This document shows positions 6,003 through 35,361 of a stretch of 35,432 nucleotides of DNA, in pieces. Origin of the DNA: Halobacteriales archaeon SW_7_65_23 (GTDB taxonomy: Archaea; Halobacteriota; Halobacteria; Halobacteriales; Haloarculaceae); the NCBI GenBank assembly GCA_003022725.1, contig PXSQ01000091.1:1-35432 (forward strand), given 5' to 3'. The position numbers and the translations under genes were made by a program. Below the pieces are notes generated by a model. The model was not told where the DNA came from and made no database searches. It saw only the letters and a list, made by a program, of their open reading frames with translations. How positions within the stretch are numbered: position 1 is the stretch's first letter; every line of letters starts with the position of its first letter.

Positions 6003-6084
6003 ATAGTGATTATTGTGACTGTTTACCGGGTCGACCGCACGTCGTCGTGTGGTCGATCCCGGAACGACTCACAATAATCACTAT
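6003..6084. mobile_element. Palindromic MITE-like element, family I, copy A (82 bp)
   Basis: Perfect 16-base terminal inverted repeats, ATAGTGATTATTGTGA at 6003-6018 and its complement at 6069-6084, enclose a second inverted repeat (GGGTCGACCGCACG against CGTGTGGTCGATCCC). The whole element can fold into one hairpin. It encodes no protein. Related copies with the same ends lie at 17581-17691 and 26317-26427, with degenerate forms near 11738-11890. Confidence 0.75.
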
Positions 6085-6459: not shown

Positions 6460-6803
6460 GTCCGGTTCTTCCACTGTACTGTTGTGTGTCTTTCGCCGGC
6501 TCTGGTCGTTGAGCCGGCAGACACCCGGCGGTCTATCCGTCGCCGGACATCCGGCGGTCGCCGTAGCGGGAGGGCGCATCGAGGTGTACGGGCTACATGA
6601 CGGCGAGAAGACGCTCGTCGCCTCGCGATAGCGCTAGCAGACGGACACCTGCCGTTTTTTCACCTCATAGTAGAATGGCAAAACACGCAAACCGGGTATT
6701 TACGCGTTTCAGCACGATTCCGGGGTGGAAATCTCCACGTACTCACGTCCGATAGTATGACTCCGGATCCCGAATCGCAGCGACGCGGGCGGTCGGCCGG
6801 GCG
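6460..6803. other. Intergenic stretch with possible gene-end remnant
   Basis: Plus-strand codons before TAG at about 6629-6631 read AVAVAGGRIEVYGLHDGEKT, which resembles the end of a beta-rich protein, but no start or upstream domain is left, so this is only a possible relic. A short hairpin GTGGA-AATC-TCCAC lies at 6725-6738 beyond the tatA stop and could help end that transcript. Nothing else was recognised. Confidence 0.25.
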
Positions 6804-11737: not shown

Positions 11738-11890
11738 CTGAGTGACTGCTGTGAATCGAGCCACTATAGTTCGTGCGTCAGAGCCCGGCAAACGCCCGAT
11801 ATGACGAGGCAGTCCCGAAAATAGTCACGAACGACCGTATGAGCACCCTCCCGACTGTTGTGAGTTTTAGCGTTCCAGCAGTCACTATCA
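11738..11890. mobile_element. Cluster of nested, degenerate family I palindromic elements (copy D)
   Basis: The outer arms are GTGACTGCTG near 11742 and its complement CAGCAGTCAC at 11876-11885, followed by TATCA. Inside lies a second pair, ATAGTTCGTGCG (from 11766) against CGAACGACCGTAT (to 11840), next to GAAAATAGTCACGA, which resembles the inner part of copy B at 17670-17691. A third compact end (GACTGTTGTGAGTTTTAGCG, from about 11852) follows. I read this as repeated insertion or rearrangement of the same family. It fills the whole gap between purK and the HD gene. Confidence 0.5.
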
Positions 11891-12712
11891 GAGTTCGATG
11901 CGCTCGACGATCCTGTCGTCGCTGGAGCGGGTGTTGAGGGCGACGATCTGGAGGTGGTTCTCGAGGCCGGAGTCACGGACCTTCGCTTTCAGCAGGTTAT
12001 CGACCTGGAACACGCCAGCCGCGTTGGTCATCTCGATCTCGACGAGCACGGGTCGCTCGTCGTTCTCACGGAGGGAGACGCGCTCGATCGCCTGGCTGGA
12101 CACCGTGTTGATGCCACGACCGCCCTGCTCGTAGGGGACGCGGGACCGGCCCCGTTCCATGTCCAGCGCGTCGGCGACCCGCACCACGCCGGCTTCCACG
12201 GTCAGCGGTTGCTCCTCGGTATGGTGACAGAGGATCGCGTGCAGCACCTCCCCCTTGACCCGGACCTGCTCCGGCACGTCGTAGAACTCCGGAAGAATCC
12301 GATCGAGCACGTCCGCAGCCAGCGGGATCGAGTAGTAGGGGTGGGCGTCCCGGTGGACGACGTGACCGATGTCGTGGAGCACCGCAGCCAGGCCGATGAT
12401 CACGGGCTCGTCGGCTTCCGCGAGCCCCTGCTGTGCAGCGCCGTTGAACTCGACCCCGTCGCGTTTCAGCAGTTCGTACAGTTGCAGGGACCGGTTCCGG
12501 ACGATCTCGATGTGCTTCGTTCCGTGGTCGTTGTACCGCTTGCGTTTCACCGGGTTGACGTTCTGCGCTTCGAGGTATGCGGTGATCTCCTCGTCGTCGT
12601 CGACAACGGAGAGGACCTCGTTGAGCCGCTCGTCCGGGTAACTGTGGTCGGTGTCGGGGTCGTAGGACCTGGTCCGACCGTCGGCACTCCCCTCTTCCTG
12701 ATCGGAACTCAT
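11888..12712 (-). CDS. HD-domain phosphohydrolase-like protein
   Basis: The 274 residues carry the metal-binding HD-superfamily pattern: an early histidine in HGTKHIEIVRNRS, the paired LHDIGHVVHRDAH, HHTEEQPL and a later aspartate in VRVADALDMERGRSRVP. Such proteins hydrolyse nucleotides or other phosphoesters; the substrate is not evident. A family-specific C-terminal domain of about 80 residues (SSQAIERVSLRENDE, VLVEIEMTNAAGVFQVDNLL) follows. A TATA-like CATTTTTTC near 12740 supports ATG 12712. The stop TGA (11888-11890) is part of TGATAGTGA, the end of the palindromic cluster beyond it. Confidence 0.8.
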   Translation of the reverse strand: MSSDQEEGSADGRTRSYDPDTDHSYPDERLNEVLSVVDDDEEITAYLEAQNVNPVKRKRYNDHGTKHIEIVRNRSLQLYELLKRDGVEFNGAAQQGLAEADEPVIIGLAAVLHDIGHVVHRDAHPYYSIPLAADVLDRILPEFYDVPEQVRVKGEVLHAILCHHTEEQPLTVEAGVVRVADALDMERGRSRVPYEQGGRGINTVSSQAIERVSLRENDERPVLVEIEMTNAAGVFQVDNLLKAKVRDSGLENHLQIVALNTRSSDDRIVERIEL

Positions 12713-13687: not shown

Positions 13688-13865
13688 CCCCGATTCCGTT
13701 CCGTCGGCACGTTCCGGCCGCCGCAGACTCGGCTGCCCATCTATTTTGCGGCGGAACCCAGCTTCTTCGTAGTTTCTGTTCCGGTTCGGGTTTCGGACTC
13801 CTGTAGCAGTTTCCGTGTTCGGGATCCTGTCGAAAAACCAGAACCTATTAGCTGATTGCAGGCAC

Positions 13866-13992
13866 TAAGCCCCCGTCCTCAACGAGTCGTTCGAGAATCG
13901 AAGATTCTCGTGATCCCGAAAATCTCCGATTTTCGGACGACACCGCAGTCCGCGCAAGCGCACAAGGAGCACAGTAGGGCGGGGATACAGTA
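13866..13992 (+). mobile_element. Structured remnant of an IS200/IS605 (TnpB-type) element, first of two
   Basis: An outer stem (CCCCCGTCCTC near 13870 against AGGGCGGGG near 13980) encloses two perfect hairpins: CGAGAATC-GAA-GATTCTCG at 13892-13910 and CCGAAAATC-TCC-GATTTTCGG at 13916-13936. The flanking words AAGCCCC, CTCAACGAG and GGGCGGGGATA match the layout of the clearer right end at 14158-14212. No TnpA or TnpB frame remains. The stem arrangement resembles guide-RNA-encoding ends of TnpB elements, but that role is inferred. Confidence 0.45.
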
Positions 13993-14157
13993 CCGTCTTC
14001 GTTTTACTTTCACTCTGTGCCGGGCATTTACAATACTGCCAGTCGAAGACTGGAAATGTGATGGCAGCTACTCATCGTCTCGGCTTCGAGCCCGACAAGA
14101 AAGGCGGTCGAGACGAATTACGCCATCACCACCGAGTAGGAGTGGGACACTCCGACC

Positions 14158-14212
14158 AGGAAGCCCCACCCTCAGCGAGCGTGTCAACGCGAGCAGGGTG
14201 GGGTAGTTCACC
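14158..14212 (+). mobile_element. IS1341-type (TnpB) right end, solo
   Basis: GAAGCCCCACCCT and AGGGTGGGGTAGTTCAC form a perfect nine-base stem (CCCCACCCT with AGGGTGGGG) and finish in TAGTTCAC, the end layout I know from haloarchaeal IS1341-type elements. The 165 bases before it contain more small hairpins (CCAGTC-GAA-GACTGG at about 14039) and a CGTCTCG/CGAGACG stem, but no TnpB coding sequence. Together with 13866-13992 this makes two tandem ends. Confidence 0.5.
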
Positions 14213-14221
14213 GCCGACCGG

Positions 14222-14339
14222 ACTGATACTGGTGGCTGTAATTCTTTTACTCACCAGTCTCTGCTCTCTGCGGAGACAGACTCTTTCTGCCTGGATTCTC
14301 AGTTCGAGTTTTCACGGACGTACAGCCACCAGTATCAGT
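14222..14339 (-). mobile_element. Palindrome-ended MITE-like element, family II, copy 1 (about 114-118 bp)
   Basis: The terminal inverted repeats are perfect over 19 bases: ACTGATACTGGTGGCTGTA at 14222-14240 and its complement at 14321-14339. The interior shares long stretches with copies at 27959 and 35274, such as GAGAATCCAGG and GTCTGTCTCCGCAGA read on the minus strand. It encodes no protein. Its right end provides the mscS stop codon. Confidence 0.75.
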
Positions 14340-15123
14340 TCCGAATCCTGACGACGCCGGAGCGGAACACCTGCTGGTTGGGGATGATGAACTCCTCGCC
14401 TTCGGATTCGATCCTGGTGACGAACACGTCCACTTCCTGGACGATGCCCCGCCTGTCGTCGATCTCGATCTCGTCACCGATCGTGTAGGGCTCGGTCAGC
14501 AGCAGGTAGATGCCGGCCGCGCTCGACGTTAAGAGGTCTTTGAACGCGAGGCCGCCGAGGAACACGACCCCGAACGCGTAGGCGGCCAGCAGGATCAGGA
14601 GTGCGGTCGTCGCGACACCGATCTGGGCCAGCGCGATGAGTGCCGCGATGTAGAAGATGCTGTACTTGACCAGCTTCGGGATCACCGACGCCTCCGGGAG
14701 TTTGACTGACTGGAGGCGCTCCTGGATCACCAGCGCCGCCTTCTCACCGACGATGAGTCCGATCACGACTGCGAGGACCGCGATGAAAAAGCGGGGAAGA
14801 TAGCCCGCGATTCGCGACCAGAACAGTTCGACGTTCAGCAACCGTGCAATGTGGAACGCGATGATGATCGTCCCGGCGTAGACGAACGCTGCGAGTAGTG
14901 TGCCGATGATCCCGACCGTCGACGTCCCGAACCGCTGGGCTGACCGCTCGAACGTCGTCCCTTCGATGGCGTTTTTGATCCCGGTTCGCTCCAGCGTGGC
15001 GTGGGTCCACCGCCAGACGAGATATGCGAGGACGCCCCCGATTATCAGGATGGCGACCGCCAGCGTGAACGCGGTCTCCTCGGAAAAGAGACTCCTGATC
15101 AGGTCCGGCCAGTCGATCTGCAT
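14335..15123 (-). CDS. mscS: Small-conductance mechanosensitive channel (MscS family)
   Basis: MscS-type channels open under membrane tension and release solutes on hypo-osmotic shock. The 262 residues contain four hydrophobic helices (near residues 15-38, 69-93, 105-128 and 148-182), the last with the Ala/Gly-rich pore pattern. The family beta domain follows (YLLLTEPYTIGDEIEIDDRRGIVQEVDVFVTRI) with FIIPNQQVFRSGVVRI. The protein ends right after VRIRN. Relatives end at about the same point, so the element whose border supplies TGA has cost at most a few residues; the C-terminal cage domain is absent, as in short haloarchaeal MscS. ATG follows the dacZ stop directly (TGAATG), so the two are co-transcribed. 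Confidence 0.9.
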   Translation of the reverse strand: MQIDWPDLIRSLFSEETAFTLAVAILIIGGVLAYLVWRWTHATLERTGIKNAIEGTTFERSAQRFGTSTVGIIGTLLAAFVYAGTIIIAFHIARLLNVELFWSRIAGYLPRFFIAVLAVVIGLIVGEKAALVIQERLQSVKLPEASVIPKLVKYSIFYIAALIALAQIGVATTALLILLAAYAFGVVFLGGLAFKDLLTSSAAGIYLLLTEPYTIGDEIEIDDRRGIVQEVDVFVTRIESEGEEFIIPNQQVFRSGVVRIRN

Positions 15124-17106: not shown

Positions 17107-17770
17107 ATGGAACTCAACCGGGACGTAGCGCGGCGTGCTATCGTCGGGCTGGGGATTCTCGGGCTGCTCTCGGTCGTCGCCGTCGTCGTCGTCGCGTTCA
17201 TTGCGCCGGTGGTGTTTGCGGTGTTTCTGTACTACGCTGTCCGCCCCATCTTCGAGTTTCTCGACCGCTTCGGACTGCCGCGCAGCCTCAGGGCCCTCCT
17301 CTCGCTGCTCCTGTTCGGCGTTCCGTTCCTGGTGTTGCTCGCGTACACGGTTGCGATCATCGCCGTCGAACTGGAGGCGTTTCTCACGTCGAGAGGGATT
17401 CTCGATTCTGCACGGCAACGTATCGTCGACGAGATGAACATCGCAGAACTGGACGTCACCCAGCTCGAGACGCTGTTGACCGAGACGGAGTCGCTCCCGT
17501 CGCCCGACGTCCTCCTCGATGCGCTGGTAACCGCCACGAGTGCGGTTGGGGGACGCTCGCGAGGTCGACTCCGAACTCTCATAGTAATTGTTGTGACTCT
17601 TTACCGCCGGGTATTTGCCAGATGCCAGTTTCGGGCCGTGAAACCGCCGCTACTGCGATGTGGTGCCGAAAATACTCACAACAATCACTATCAGAGACGA
17701 TGTTCGGCAACATCGCGACCATCTTCGTCACCGGAACCATGGCGATCCTGACGTTTTACCACAGCGTCGA
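17107..17770 (+). pseudogene. AI-2E family permease gene, frameshifted, interrupted and truncated
   Basis: The first 150 residues (MELNRDVARRAIVGLGILG, then hydrophobic helices and YYAVRPIFEFLDRFGLPRSL) match the N-terminus of AI-2E/PerM-type transporters of about 350 residues. A GGGGG run near 17547 moves the frame: reading it as four G restores GDAREVDSELS. That frame continues across the palindromic element at 17581-17691 as ETMFGNIATIFVTGTMAILT, a plausible next helix, and is lost after about 17770. So there are three lesions: a one-base frameshift, an inserted element, and loss of the C-terminal half. The promoter is intact. Confidence 0.7.
17581..17691. mobile_element. Palindromic MITE-like element, family I, copy B (111 bp)
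   Basis: ATAGTAATTGTTGTGA at 17581-17596 pairs with TCACAACAATCACTAT at 17676-17691, with one mismatch. Similarity between the ends continues inward (CTCTTTACCG against CGAAAATAC). It interrupts the AI-2E gene. Joining the flanks with a single C restores a protein-like reading frame, so any target duplication is very short. Confidence 0.72.
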
Positions 17771-26316: not shown

Positions 26317-26427
26317 ATAGTGATTGCTGTGATTGTTTTCGTGACCACGTCACGTGAACGGGTGGTTCACGGGCTGAACTCCAGGAACTGTGACTCCCCG
26401 GCGGTAATGAATCACAGCAATCACTAT
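26317..26427. mobile_element. Palindromic MITE-like element, family I, copy C (111 bp)
   Basis: ATAGTGATTGCTGTGATT at 26317-26334 and its exact complement at 26410-26427 give an 18-base perfect terminal inverted repeat. The element has the same length as copy B and no coding capacity. The bases just outside the right end read CAG, so TGATAGTGA on the minus strand closes the neighbouring small gene. The 195 bases between psmB and this element hold no recognised gene. Confidence 0.75.
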
Positions 26428-26597
26428 CAGGCTGATCCTGCTTGCTCGTAGCGTTCTTTCAGACCCATGACTGCCCGGTCCATCGGGAGTTCGAGGCCGA
26501 CCCGGCGCGTCACTAGCGCGAGCGGCAGCATCGCGATCCCGGCCACGAGTGTCAGCTGATACAGCGCGAACAGCGTTGCACGGTAGAGGCGTTCCAT
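26427..26597 (-). CDS. Small membrane protein
   Basis: The 56 residues are MERLYRATLFALYQLTLVAG, then IAMLPLALVTRRVGLELPMD and RAVMGLKERYEQAGSA: one long hydrophobic segment followed by a short charged helix. The frame has good haloarchaeal character and a TATA box CTTATATAC (about 26626-26634) at leaderless spacing. The stop TGA at 26427-26429 shares a base with the palindromic element. A perfect operator-like palindrome lies farther upstream at 26653-26673. Function unknown. Confidence 0.6.
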   Translation of the reverse strand: MERLYRATLFALYQLTLVAGIAMLPLALVTRRVGLELPMDRAVMGLKERYEQAGSA

Positions 26598-27278: not shown

Positions 27279-27418
27279 GTGCATCCCCCGCGCCGGCCGC
27301 AGTGGTGGCGACCGCTCATCGCGCACGGTCGGCGCCTCTCCCGTGACGGATCGCGACAGCCAAATCCGAGGTGACCCGCTCCCGGTACCTTTTTGTATTA
27401 CTTCGAGTTATGTCGAGT

Positions 27419-27961
27419 ATGGAGCTACCGACACCGGAGGATCTCCGCCAGCGACGGACGGATCTGGGGCTCACCCAGAGCGAACTCGCCGAACAGGCCG
27501 ACGTGTCCCAGCCCCTGATCGCCCGGATCGAAGGTGGGGACGTCGATCCGCGCCTGTCGACGCTGCGCCGGATCGTCAACGCGCTGGAGGAGGCCGAGGG
27601 CGGCCTGTTGCGGGCCGACGATCTGATGAACTCGCCGATCGTCAGCGTCCCCCCGGACGCGAGTGTGCGGGAAGCGACCGCCGTGATGGACGAGAACGGC
27701 TACTCACAGATCCCGGTAGTCCGCGATGGAACGCCCGAGGGACTGATCGGCACGTCCGACATCCGCCAGCGGTCCGAAGAGAACGTTGGCGACCTTCCCG
27801 TGGCGGAGGTGATGCACGAGGCGATCAGCATCGTCGAACCCGATGCGACGATCGACACCGTCGACGCCCACCTCGATCACAACGACGCCGTGCTGGTCGT
27901 CGAGGGGGGCCAGACTGTCGGCATCATCACCGAGGCCGACATCGCACGCCACATCTCCTGA
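27419..27961 (+). CDS. XRE-type HTH regulator with two CBS domains
   Basis: The 180 residues carry an N-terminal XRE helix-turn-helix (EDLRQRRTDLGLTQSELAEQ, VSQPLIARIEGGDVDPRLST, residues 7-57). Two CBS domains follow (DLMNSPIVSVPPDASVREAT; DLPVAEVMHEAISIVEPDAT and VGIITEADIARHI) that may sense adenine nucleotides. This architecture is common in archaea and the targets are usually unknown. ATG 27419 is preferred over 27410 because a CTTTTTGTATT box near 27393 would place the transcript start there. The stop TGA is the first three bases of the family II palindromic element. Confidence 0.85.
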   Translation: MELPTPEDLRQRRTDLGLTQSELAEQADVSQPLIARIEGGDVDPRLSTLRRIVNALEEAEGGLLRADDLMNSPIVSVPPDASVREATAVMDENGYSQIPVVRDGTPEGLIGTSDIRQRSEENVGDLPVAEVMHEAISIVEPDATIDTVDAHLDHNDAVLVVEGGQTVGIITEADIARHIS

Positions 27962-28046
27962 TACTGGTGGCTGTACGTACGTGAACACTCGAATTGAGAA
28001 TCCAGGCGGAACGGGTCTGTCTCCGCAGATAGACAGCCAGACGTGA
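27959..28046 (+). mobile_element. MITE-like element, family II, copy 2 (right end degenerate)
   Basis: TGATACTGGTGGCTGTA at 27959-27975 is identical to the ends of copy 1. The following bases (CGTACGTGAACACTCGAATT, GAGAATCCAGGCGGAACGG, GTCTGTCTCCGCAGA) closely match copies 1 and 3. The element then shortens, and only a weak partner end (ACAGCCAGACG and TTCAGT near 28032-28051) remains. It abuts the HTH-CBS gene. Confidence 0.65.
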
Positions 28047-29838: not shown

Positions 29839-30070
29839 CTCTCGCTGTTGTACACCGCTGTCAGGTATGTATATTTTGCTCCCAACCGAGAAAACTACTG
29901 TGCAACCATAGTACTGCTGTGAGGCAGTCGTGGCTGATACTGTCGGACGTAACTCTGTGTCACATCGTGACACTCTCCTGGCTGTATTCGCACGGGTGAA
30001 CGGCTGAACGTGACGCGTGACTCCACGAAATATTGAGCACGCATTTAATGGTACCGTTGTACTTAATGCG

Positions 30071-35060: not shown

Positions 35061-35273
35061 TTTGTTCGGCTAGTGTTTTGTACCTGGGTAGTGGCACCAG
35101 TCGCGGTACGAACGGTGGACGCTCATGCGACTTGGACACGCGGGCTACCAGCCGCATGCGTTCGTCGGCGACCACCATCTTTCGGCCGACGAGCTCGTGA
35201 CCGTCAGTCGCCGAATCGGTGATATCGCGTGTACCAGACGGCGGCTGCGGTGGCTGTCGGCAGTGATACTGGT

Positions 35274-35361
35274 GGCTGTAAGTACGTGGAAACTCGAATT
35301 GAGAATCCAGGCGGAACGGGTCTGTCTCCGCAGATAGCAGAGACTGGTGAGTAAAAAAATT
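35274..35361 (+). mobile_element. MITE-like element, family II, copy 3 (right end lost)
   Basis: TGATACTGGTGGCTGTA at 35274-35290 begins the copy. The interior (GTGGAAACTCGAATTGAGAA, CCAGGCGGAACGG, GTCTGTCTCCGCAGA, AGACTGGTGAGTAAAA) follows copy 1 nearly base for base, but the expected closing TACAGCCACCAGTATCA is replaced by unrelated bases after ATTGG. Confidence 0.65.

Follow-up and report, generated by a model that had tools for sequence, protein, structure and literature searches.

Known mobile elements with a similar target or insertion site

Tn7, which inserts at attTn7 by glmS, and the integrases that insert in the 3' ends of tRNA genes occupy safe sites at the ends of genes. The short elements found in the stretch of haloarchaeal DNA analysed here (35,432 nucleotides of Halobacteriales archaeon SW_7_65_23, hereinafter the window, from a genome of 2.63 Mb in 115 contigs that is 79% complete) resemble them in that insertion at a gene end keeps the gene product intact. 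However, Tn7 and the tRNA integrases use one or a few specific sites, whereas the present elements use a 3-5 bp motif and occur at many genes.

With respect to the target, the IS1031 group of the IS5 family is described as using TNA with an exclusive 3-bp repeat, TGA being among the observed sites (PMC12016507). The group shares TNA and the 3-bp duplication with the present elements but differs in its ends, given for ISLrh as beginning with GAACCTG, in contrast to TACTGG or TAGTGA here (PMC12016507). In Haloquadratum walsbyi, small transposase-free repeats have been described, of which the SMRs are reported to lack a target duplication and SMR-A to prefer the palindromes of PATEs and IS605-type transposons; a table legend in the same paper designates different repeats at one position as 'SwitchRepeats' (PMC3119063). 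Like the haloarchaeal MITEs and SMRs of that description, the present elements are small, mostly non-coding (as judged from size alone), have inverted ends and numerous copies, and nest in other elements, as described there (PMC3119063), and as in the case of SwitchRepeats, different families are found here at the mscS and C15 stop codons. They are set apart from the SMRs, as described there, by the duplication of TNA, often in stop codons (PMC3119063), and the absence of target duplication that characterizes SMR-A does not hold for them. The term 'stop codon' is absent from a review of prokaryotic MITEs (PMC10969869), and no report of MITEs at stop codons was found in the titles and abstract openings among the literature matches listed, although such reports may still exist. 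The end sequence itself was matched, among the matches listed, in work on trout.

Element families and target site

The element proper is TACTGG…CCAGTA in family II, TAGTGA…TCACTA in family I and TACTGTCGG… in family III, with terminal inverted repeats (TIRs) of 14-15 bp. The 80 pairs of family II ends span 52-331 bp, with 108 bp in 44 of them, and elements of families I and III are mostly 80 or 108-109 bp long. In the genome containing the window, 315 family II ends are detected at no more than two mismatches, compared to a single control match. The 3-mer immediately outside 273 family II ends (in 506 kb around copies) is TGA in 118 cases, TCA in 111, TAA in 17 and TTA in 14. The TNA flanks on the two sides are identical in 98 of the 119 pairs (16/16 in family I, 64/80 in family II and 18/23 in family III), and the same is observed for 53 of 60 pairs in other genera and 29 of 32 pairs in two sister genomes; non-identical flanks occur in 16 of the 80 family II pairs, including the copy at mscS, and in five of the 23 family III pairs. 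None of the 80 family II pairs has identical 4-bp flanks. When oriented, the target reads C-TGA-G, which is extended to GAC-TGA-G in the set from other genera. Flanks of the TGA/TGA or TCA/TCA type represent a 3-bp duplication of TNA, so that the TGA belongs to the target rather than to the element end. As shown by these flanks and by the empty site described below, the elements insert at TNA, with CTGAG as the best site, and duplicate three bases of the target. The elements thus share with MITEs the short length, the TIRs, the fixed-length duplication and the numerous dispersed copies. Folding is strong, with z between -3.0 and -10.1 for the 7 folds, a property compatible with any element that is palindromic.

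Elements and stop codons in the window

Family I is represented in the window by three complete elements, and family II by one complete element and two with a single end; there are also two family III ends and a degenerate composite. The complete family II element (108 bp, 14227..14334) carries the TIR TACTGGTGGCTGTA on either side, and its right end adjoins the stop codon of a minus-strand gene for an mscS-type mechanosensitive channel (14335..15123; Pfam PF00924, MS_channel, and PF05552). This stop codon (14335..14337, minus strand, TCA on the plus strand) is the TNA flank of the element and lies at the same residue in orthologues; the flank on the other side is TGA (14224-14226), so no clean duplication is demonstrated at mscS. 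On the plus strand, an HTH-CBS gene (27371..27961, Pfam HTH_3 and CBS, with the start at 27419 according to our own gene caller) ends with a TGA (27959-27961) that is the flank of the left end and interior of another family II element (27962..28032, plus strand), for which no right TIR was found. The right TIR was not found either for the family II left end and interior at 35267..35361 (plus strand), the flanking TGA of which (35264-35266) does not coincide with a called stop codon.

Among the family I elements, the copy of 109 bp at 26318..26426 has a TCA duplication on either side, and the right TCA (26427-26429) is the stop codon of a minus-strand 56-codon ORF (26427..26597) which, on ORF reading, encodes a membrane-like protein of 56 aa, has no Pfam match and is absent from the calls of our gene model. 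The second 109-bp element (17582..17690) also has TCA on either side, the right one (17691-17693) doubling as the end of a 257-codon minus-strand ORF without a Pfam match. The third element is shorter (80 bp, 6004..6083), with TGA on either side and a near-perfect hairpin. The degenerate composite (11738..11887, boundaries set by eye) combines family I-like ends with another repeat and lies beside the stop codon (11888-11890, TCA) of a minus-strand HD-domain gene (11888..12712, Pfam HD); a strict family I search returns the three elements above and does not detect it. The family III left end TACTGTCGGACGTAA (29938..29952, plus strand) follows TGA 29935-29937, away from any called stop codon, and for the other family III end (6743..6757, minus strand), the plus-strand flank is TGA 6758-6760. 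Scanning the window for Rfam families and tRNAs gave no match.

An earlier note on this DNA had located palindromic ends at the stop codons of the mscS, HTH-CBS, HD and small ORF genes, and all four coordinates are correct, each stop adjoining an element end. However, the end at HD, assigned to family I in the note, belongs to a degenerate composite missed by the strict search, and the family II end at HTH-CBS to a copy without a right end. The family I end TGATAGTGA does read as three in-frame stops, TGA-TAG-TGA, as had been proposed. The inclusion of TGA in the element end has to be abandoned because this triplet is the target or its duplicate and the elements start with TACTGG or TAGTGA.

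More generally, ends inserted in a stop codon supply in-frame back-up stops, directly as TAG-TGA in family I and as TAA at the fifth codon in family III and at one family II end (TGA-TAC-TGG-TGG-CTG-TAA), which may be due to chance.

Empty sites and orthologous genes

An exact empty site was identified for the stop codon at C60:18560, which ends a gene that presumably encodes an S9-peptidase-like protein: the genome containing the window has TGA, the element and TGATCACCGGACTCC, whereas two relatives have TGATCGCCGGACTCC, so that a single TGA turned into two. At the C3 stop, this genome has TGA, the element and TGAATCCGACT, and a relative has TAAATCCGACT.

Orthologues were found for 18 of the 20 stop-site genes of this genome (in loci from up to five relatives, mostly G104 and G107). 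The stop lies at the same residue in 14 of the 18, and 12 of these 14 genes have at least one same-residue orthologue without a recognised element after the stop; in the remaining four, the end is shifted by -8 to +5 residues. A search of genome contigs for mscS retrieved 21 loci, of which 20 are haloarchaeal by record name and one is distant and bacterial, the nearest matches being the MAGs Halobacteriales archaeon QS_4_66_20 and SW_10_66_29. The mscS orthologues share the stop residue, with the one at locus L195 a residue shorter, and the distant ones end with TAA, TAG or TGA with no recognised end behind. The HD orthologues that reach the end of the gene also share the stop residue, and the closest among them have TAA and no element. 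Given that the coding sequence ends at the same residue in orthologues that lack a recognised element, these stop codons were not made by the elements.

Stacked elements and different families at one stop codon

Different families occupy the mscS stop codon in three related genomes (window 14335, L198 and L180), namely, family II in the window, a family I element between TGA and TGA followed directly by a family III end in QS_4_66_20, and a family I remnant in SW_10_66_29. The C15 stop has family II in the genome containing the window and family I in G104. At the C20:51853 stop, a III-type element is common to all three genomes, and the copy in the genome of the window contains a nested family II element. 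A family I element at the C104 stop (G000:C104:8377-8485; L221) is common to this genome and G104; the stop codon is TGA in the former and TAA in the latter, and the far duplicate is TGA in both. Five stacked pairs with one common TNA are present in the genome containing the window, compared to about 0.08 expected by chance, given 190 right ends and 201 left ends over 506 kb. From these arrangements, the duplicated TNA evidently gets reused by further elements.

Distribution of the elements relative to genes

For positional statistics, genes were called with a home-made codon-usage gene caller, elements with matched duplications were removed and the original TNA position was scored, which yielded 95 sites in the genome containing the window (98 minus 3 nested) and 52 in other genera (53 minus one repeated flank). 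The 95 sites include 20 stop codons (13 of 64 for family II alone), 69 intergenic positions and 6 coding positions, whereas the motif-weighted TNA positions of that sequence fall into coding (63%), intergenic (34%) and stop-codon (3.6%) classes. Thus, 6 coding insertions are observed against 59.7 expected. Among the 89 non-coding sites, stop codons are hit 20 times compared to 8.6 expected (P = 0.0003) with a motif that had stop sites in its training, and motifs trained on non-stop sites give expectations of 8.4 or 7.4. Genes missed by the caller inflate the intergenic null and hence this non-coding comparison, whereas the comparison with downstream neighbours is hardly affected. In the latter, neighbours up to 10, 20 or 30 nt away reveal no excess at stops (at 30 nt, 20 of 34 sites against 19.9 expected), and extending the distance to 60 and 100 nt gives P values of 0.20 and 0.04, respectively; with the non-stop-trained motifs, the 20 of 41 sites within 60 nt compare to 14.1-16.7 expected (P = 0.18 for the short motif and 0.04 for the long one). 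In this genome, TNA at the stop codon is hit hardly more, if at all, than TNA just downstream (P 0.04-0.8). The two sister genomes (5 stop, 20 intergenic and 4 coding sites) likewise show no excess, with 5 of 14 sites near stops at the stop itself against 4.5-5.3 expected. The intergenic copies are distributed among gene orientations much as CTGA/TCAG sites are, with no bias away from the promoter side, so that visible signs of purging are confined to coding sequence.

The set from other genera comprises 12 genomes of genera g3 and g2, 9 of which contributed sites, and includes 55 distinct copies that measure 70-80 bp (length filter 61-90 bp) and have an inner hairpin. Of the 52 sites, 32 are in stop codons, 19 are intergenic and one is coding; the expectation for stops is 12.3 of 51 non-coding sites with a -3..+3 motif derived from non-stop sites (P = 5e-9) and 7.6 with a short motif. 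A further 3 sites lie within 60 nt downstream, so that 32 of 35 are at the stop compared to 24.7 expected (P = 0.003), or 20.6 with the short motif. In an initial sample of 20 loci of relatives, 16 were at stops; the figure of 32/52 was obtained after the set had been enlarged and the gene model retrained. GAC (19/140) and GAG (18/140) are the most frequent last codons in the loci of this set. The stop-site genes differ from each other, with the exception of one related pair among the 61 proteins compared. In the other genera, 19 of the 25 stop-site proteins scanned (of 32) match Pfam above the curated cut-off, and some of these matches, in particular those for prolyl-tRNA synthetase and acyl-CoA dehydrogenase, extend to the C-terminus. 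The stop preference in the other genera exceeds the motif together with tolerance of 3' ends and is not fully explained by them.

Copies in relatives and the inner hairpin

Of the 146 genomes of the family, 30 contain the exact end pattern TNATACTGGTGGCTGTA, a few of them at high density. Copies at stop and intergenic sites are alike in age (5 vs 25 copies, P = 0.78). In a diverse selection of 24 of the 70-80-bp copies from the other genera, both sides changed in 5 of the 9 pairs of the inner hairpin and in 2 of the 14 pairs formed by the ends; in shuffles that leave the relatedness of the copies in place, 7 such pairs were reached by 1 in 500 and 18 cells by none, and there were 1-2 pairs in slid controls. 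The 70-80-bp copies (L160-L313) thus retain the pairing of their inner hairpin through double changes, so that this structure may be important in its own right, for instance, at the DNA level when the element transposes.

Search for an autonomous partner

Among the ends listed for the genome containing the window (at least 232), two inverted pairs are spaced 420-3000 bp apart, at 810 and 1052 bp, and came into consideration as autonomous elements. Inspection of sequence and ORFs by eye showed that the 1052-bp pair is made up of two unconnected, broken elements on either side of ordinary sequence, and no transposase was seen in the 810-bp pair. The three PF01609 transposase matches in this genome are short or partial and have no inverted pair of element ends around them, and the 15 matches in five relatives have no TNA-flanked inverted ends nearby; short elements close to the PF01609 loci L348 and L350 are separate from the transposases. 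Of 20 loci of relatives with single ends, 13 have a diverged partner end at a distance of 70-79 bp, which points to short elements, and the other 7 have no convincing partner. A partial search, over the stretches, these 20 loci and the PF01609 loci, revealed no partner transposase with ends of this kind. In a plasmid collection, the 108-bp family II element had no match, and five matches in viral contigs, which are low-GC and have no matching inverted end near, were taken as chance.

Possible explanations

We favor, with a probability of roughly 0.78, the explanation that the elements are MITEs of at least three families that insert at TNA, that the 3-bp duplication rebuilds the stop codon and that coding insertions are purged. 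Under this scenario, short non-coding MITEs, in this DNA about 80 or 108 bp in length and with TA[C/G]TG at the start of their inverted ends, would be inserted at TNA, best CTGAG, by a transposase presumably of outside origin, which would duplicate three bases. Where TNA is a stop codon (TGA or TAA), the duplication would leave an intact stop before the element and hence the protein unchanged, whereas insertions in coding sequence, to judge from their rarity, would be lost through selection. Given that many stop codons are TNA sites, with a GACTGAG fit in the related genera, and that coding insertions are lost, copies would accumulate at stops; the duplicated TNA would offer a landing place for the next element, hence the stacking. 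Among the observations that count against this explanation, the closest relatives of the HD gene stop with TAA, not TGA, some pairs (16/80 in family II and 5/23 in family III) have non-identical flanks, and the partial search revealed no autonomous partner. Purging in a broad sense is also at odds with the data because it would predict a bias away from promoter-side regions, and the intergenic copies show none.

The earlier note had proposed that copies are purged elsewhere and survive at gene ends or, alternatively, that the elements target gene ends, and had named a distribution random with respect to stops as the refuting outcome. Such a distribution did not occur (20/95 sites on stops in the genome of the window and 32/52 in the other genera), and over the copies sampled in this genome and its relatives the association with stops is above chance. 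Purging is largely borne out for coding sequence (6/95 against about 60) and is not visible for the intergenic copies. As for targeting, CTGAG/GACTGAG does resemble the haloarchaeal gene end, and 32 of 52 sites in the other genera are on stops, but in the genome containing the window the excess nearly disappears against downstream TNA. It is conceivable, albeit doubtful, that the elements form a stop-codon-homing system, with the target GACTGAG/CTGAG matching acidic haloarchaeal gene ends and any stop serving as a reusable, stackable haven. Homing to stop codons or gene ends as a safe haven beyond the local sequence, through a longer target or, for example, transcription termination, seems unlikely. 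The excess over downstream neighbours in the other genera would fit such homing, as would the diversity of the stop-site genes and the G022 copies, 11 of 14 of which occur at stops in spite of their near identity. The weak or absent excess in the genome of the window and in its sisters does not fit, and because the motif was trained on 19 sites, a longer motif could account for the remainder. The stop excess fades in the genus of the window but persists in the other genera, so one explanation may not serve both.

The other proposal of the earlier note, portable stop-plus-terminator modules retained for ending genes, we regard as very improbable. The strong hairpins, the covariation of the inner hairpin of the 78-bp version (5/9 pairs) and the back-up stops at some ends could be taken in its favor. 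However, the stop codon predates the element, given that mscS, HD and 12 of 18 genes have orthologues with the same stop residue and no recognised element, and 69 of the 95 sites are intergenic, off stops. Furthermore, among the family II copies at stops, the T-tract end points toward the gene in 6 (one a tract-less hybrid) and away from it in 7; given this 6:7 orientation and the lack of an Rfam match in the window, a terminator role appears to be without support. Still less credible is the possibility that these are short mobile repeats that insert without duplication and contain the TGA inside the inverted end, similarly to SMR-A of Haloquadratum, as could be suggested by the similar size, prominent inverted ends, lack of a transposase and nesting in other elements described there (PMC3119063). 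In that case, one would not expect flanks that vary among TGA, TCA, TAA and TTA and match each other, equally oriented, in 98 of the 119 pairs, nor an empty site with a single TGA.

A 3-bp duplication that rebuilds the stop is a testable answer to the question how dense small repeats invade compact archaeal genomes with genes left unbroken. For annotation, it is relevant that such repeats touch stop codons and that the TGA at the repeat edge is the target, not the element. If the stop preference holds for new insertions, it would represent target choice spread over many genes rather than one attachment site.

Additional repeats near the elements

A further dispersed repeat, which we take to resemble palindromic sequences of the IS605/PATE type, adjoins the family II element beside mscS (window 13848-14213); a close copy is present in the same genome (C50:12867-13129, 93%), with fragments in several genomes of the same genus. 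An additional family with ends TACGGTCG... is represented by a 78-bp element with TGA on either side (L350:860-937). Similar ends are located inside the composite behind the HD stop (window 11823-11839) and at the C8 stop, directly following the family III element; the gene that ends there is presumably PCNA-like.
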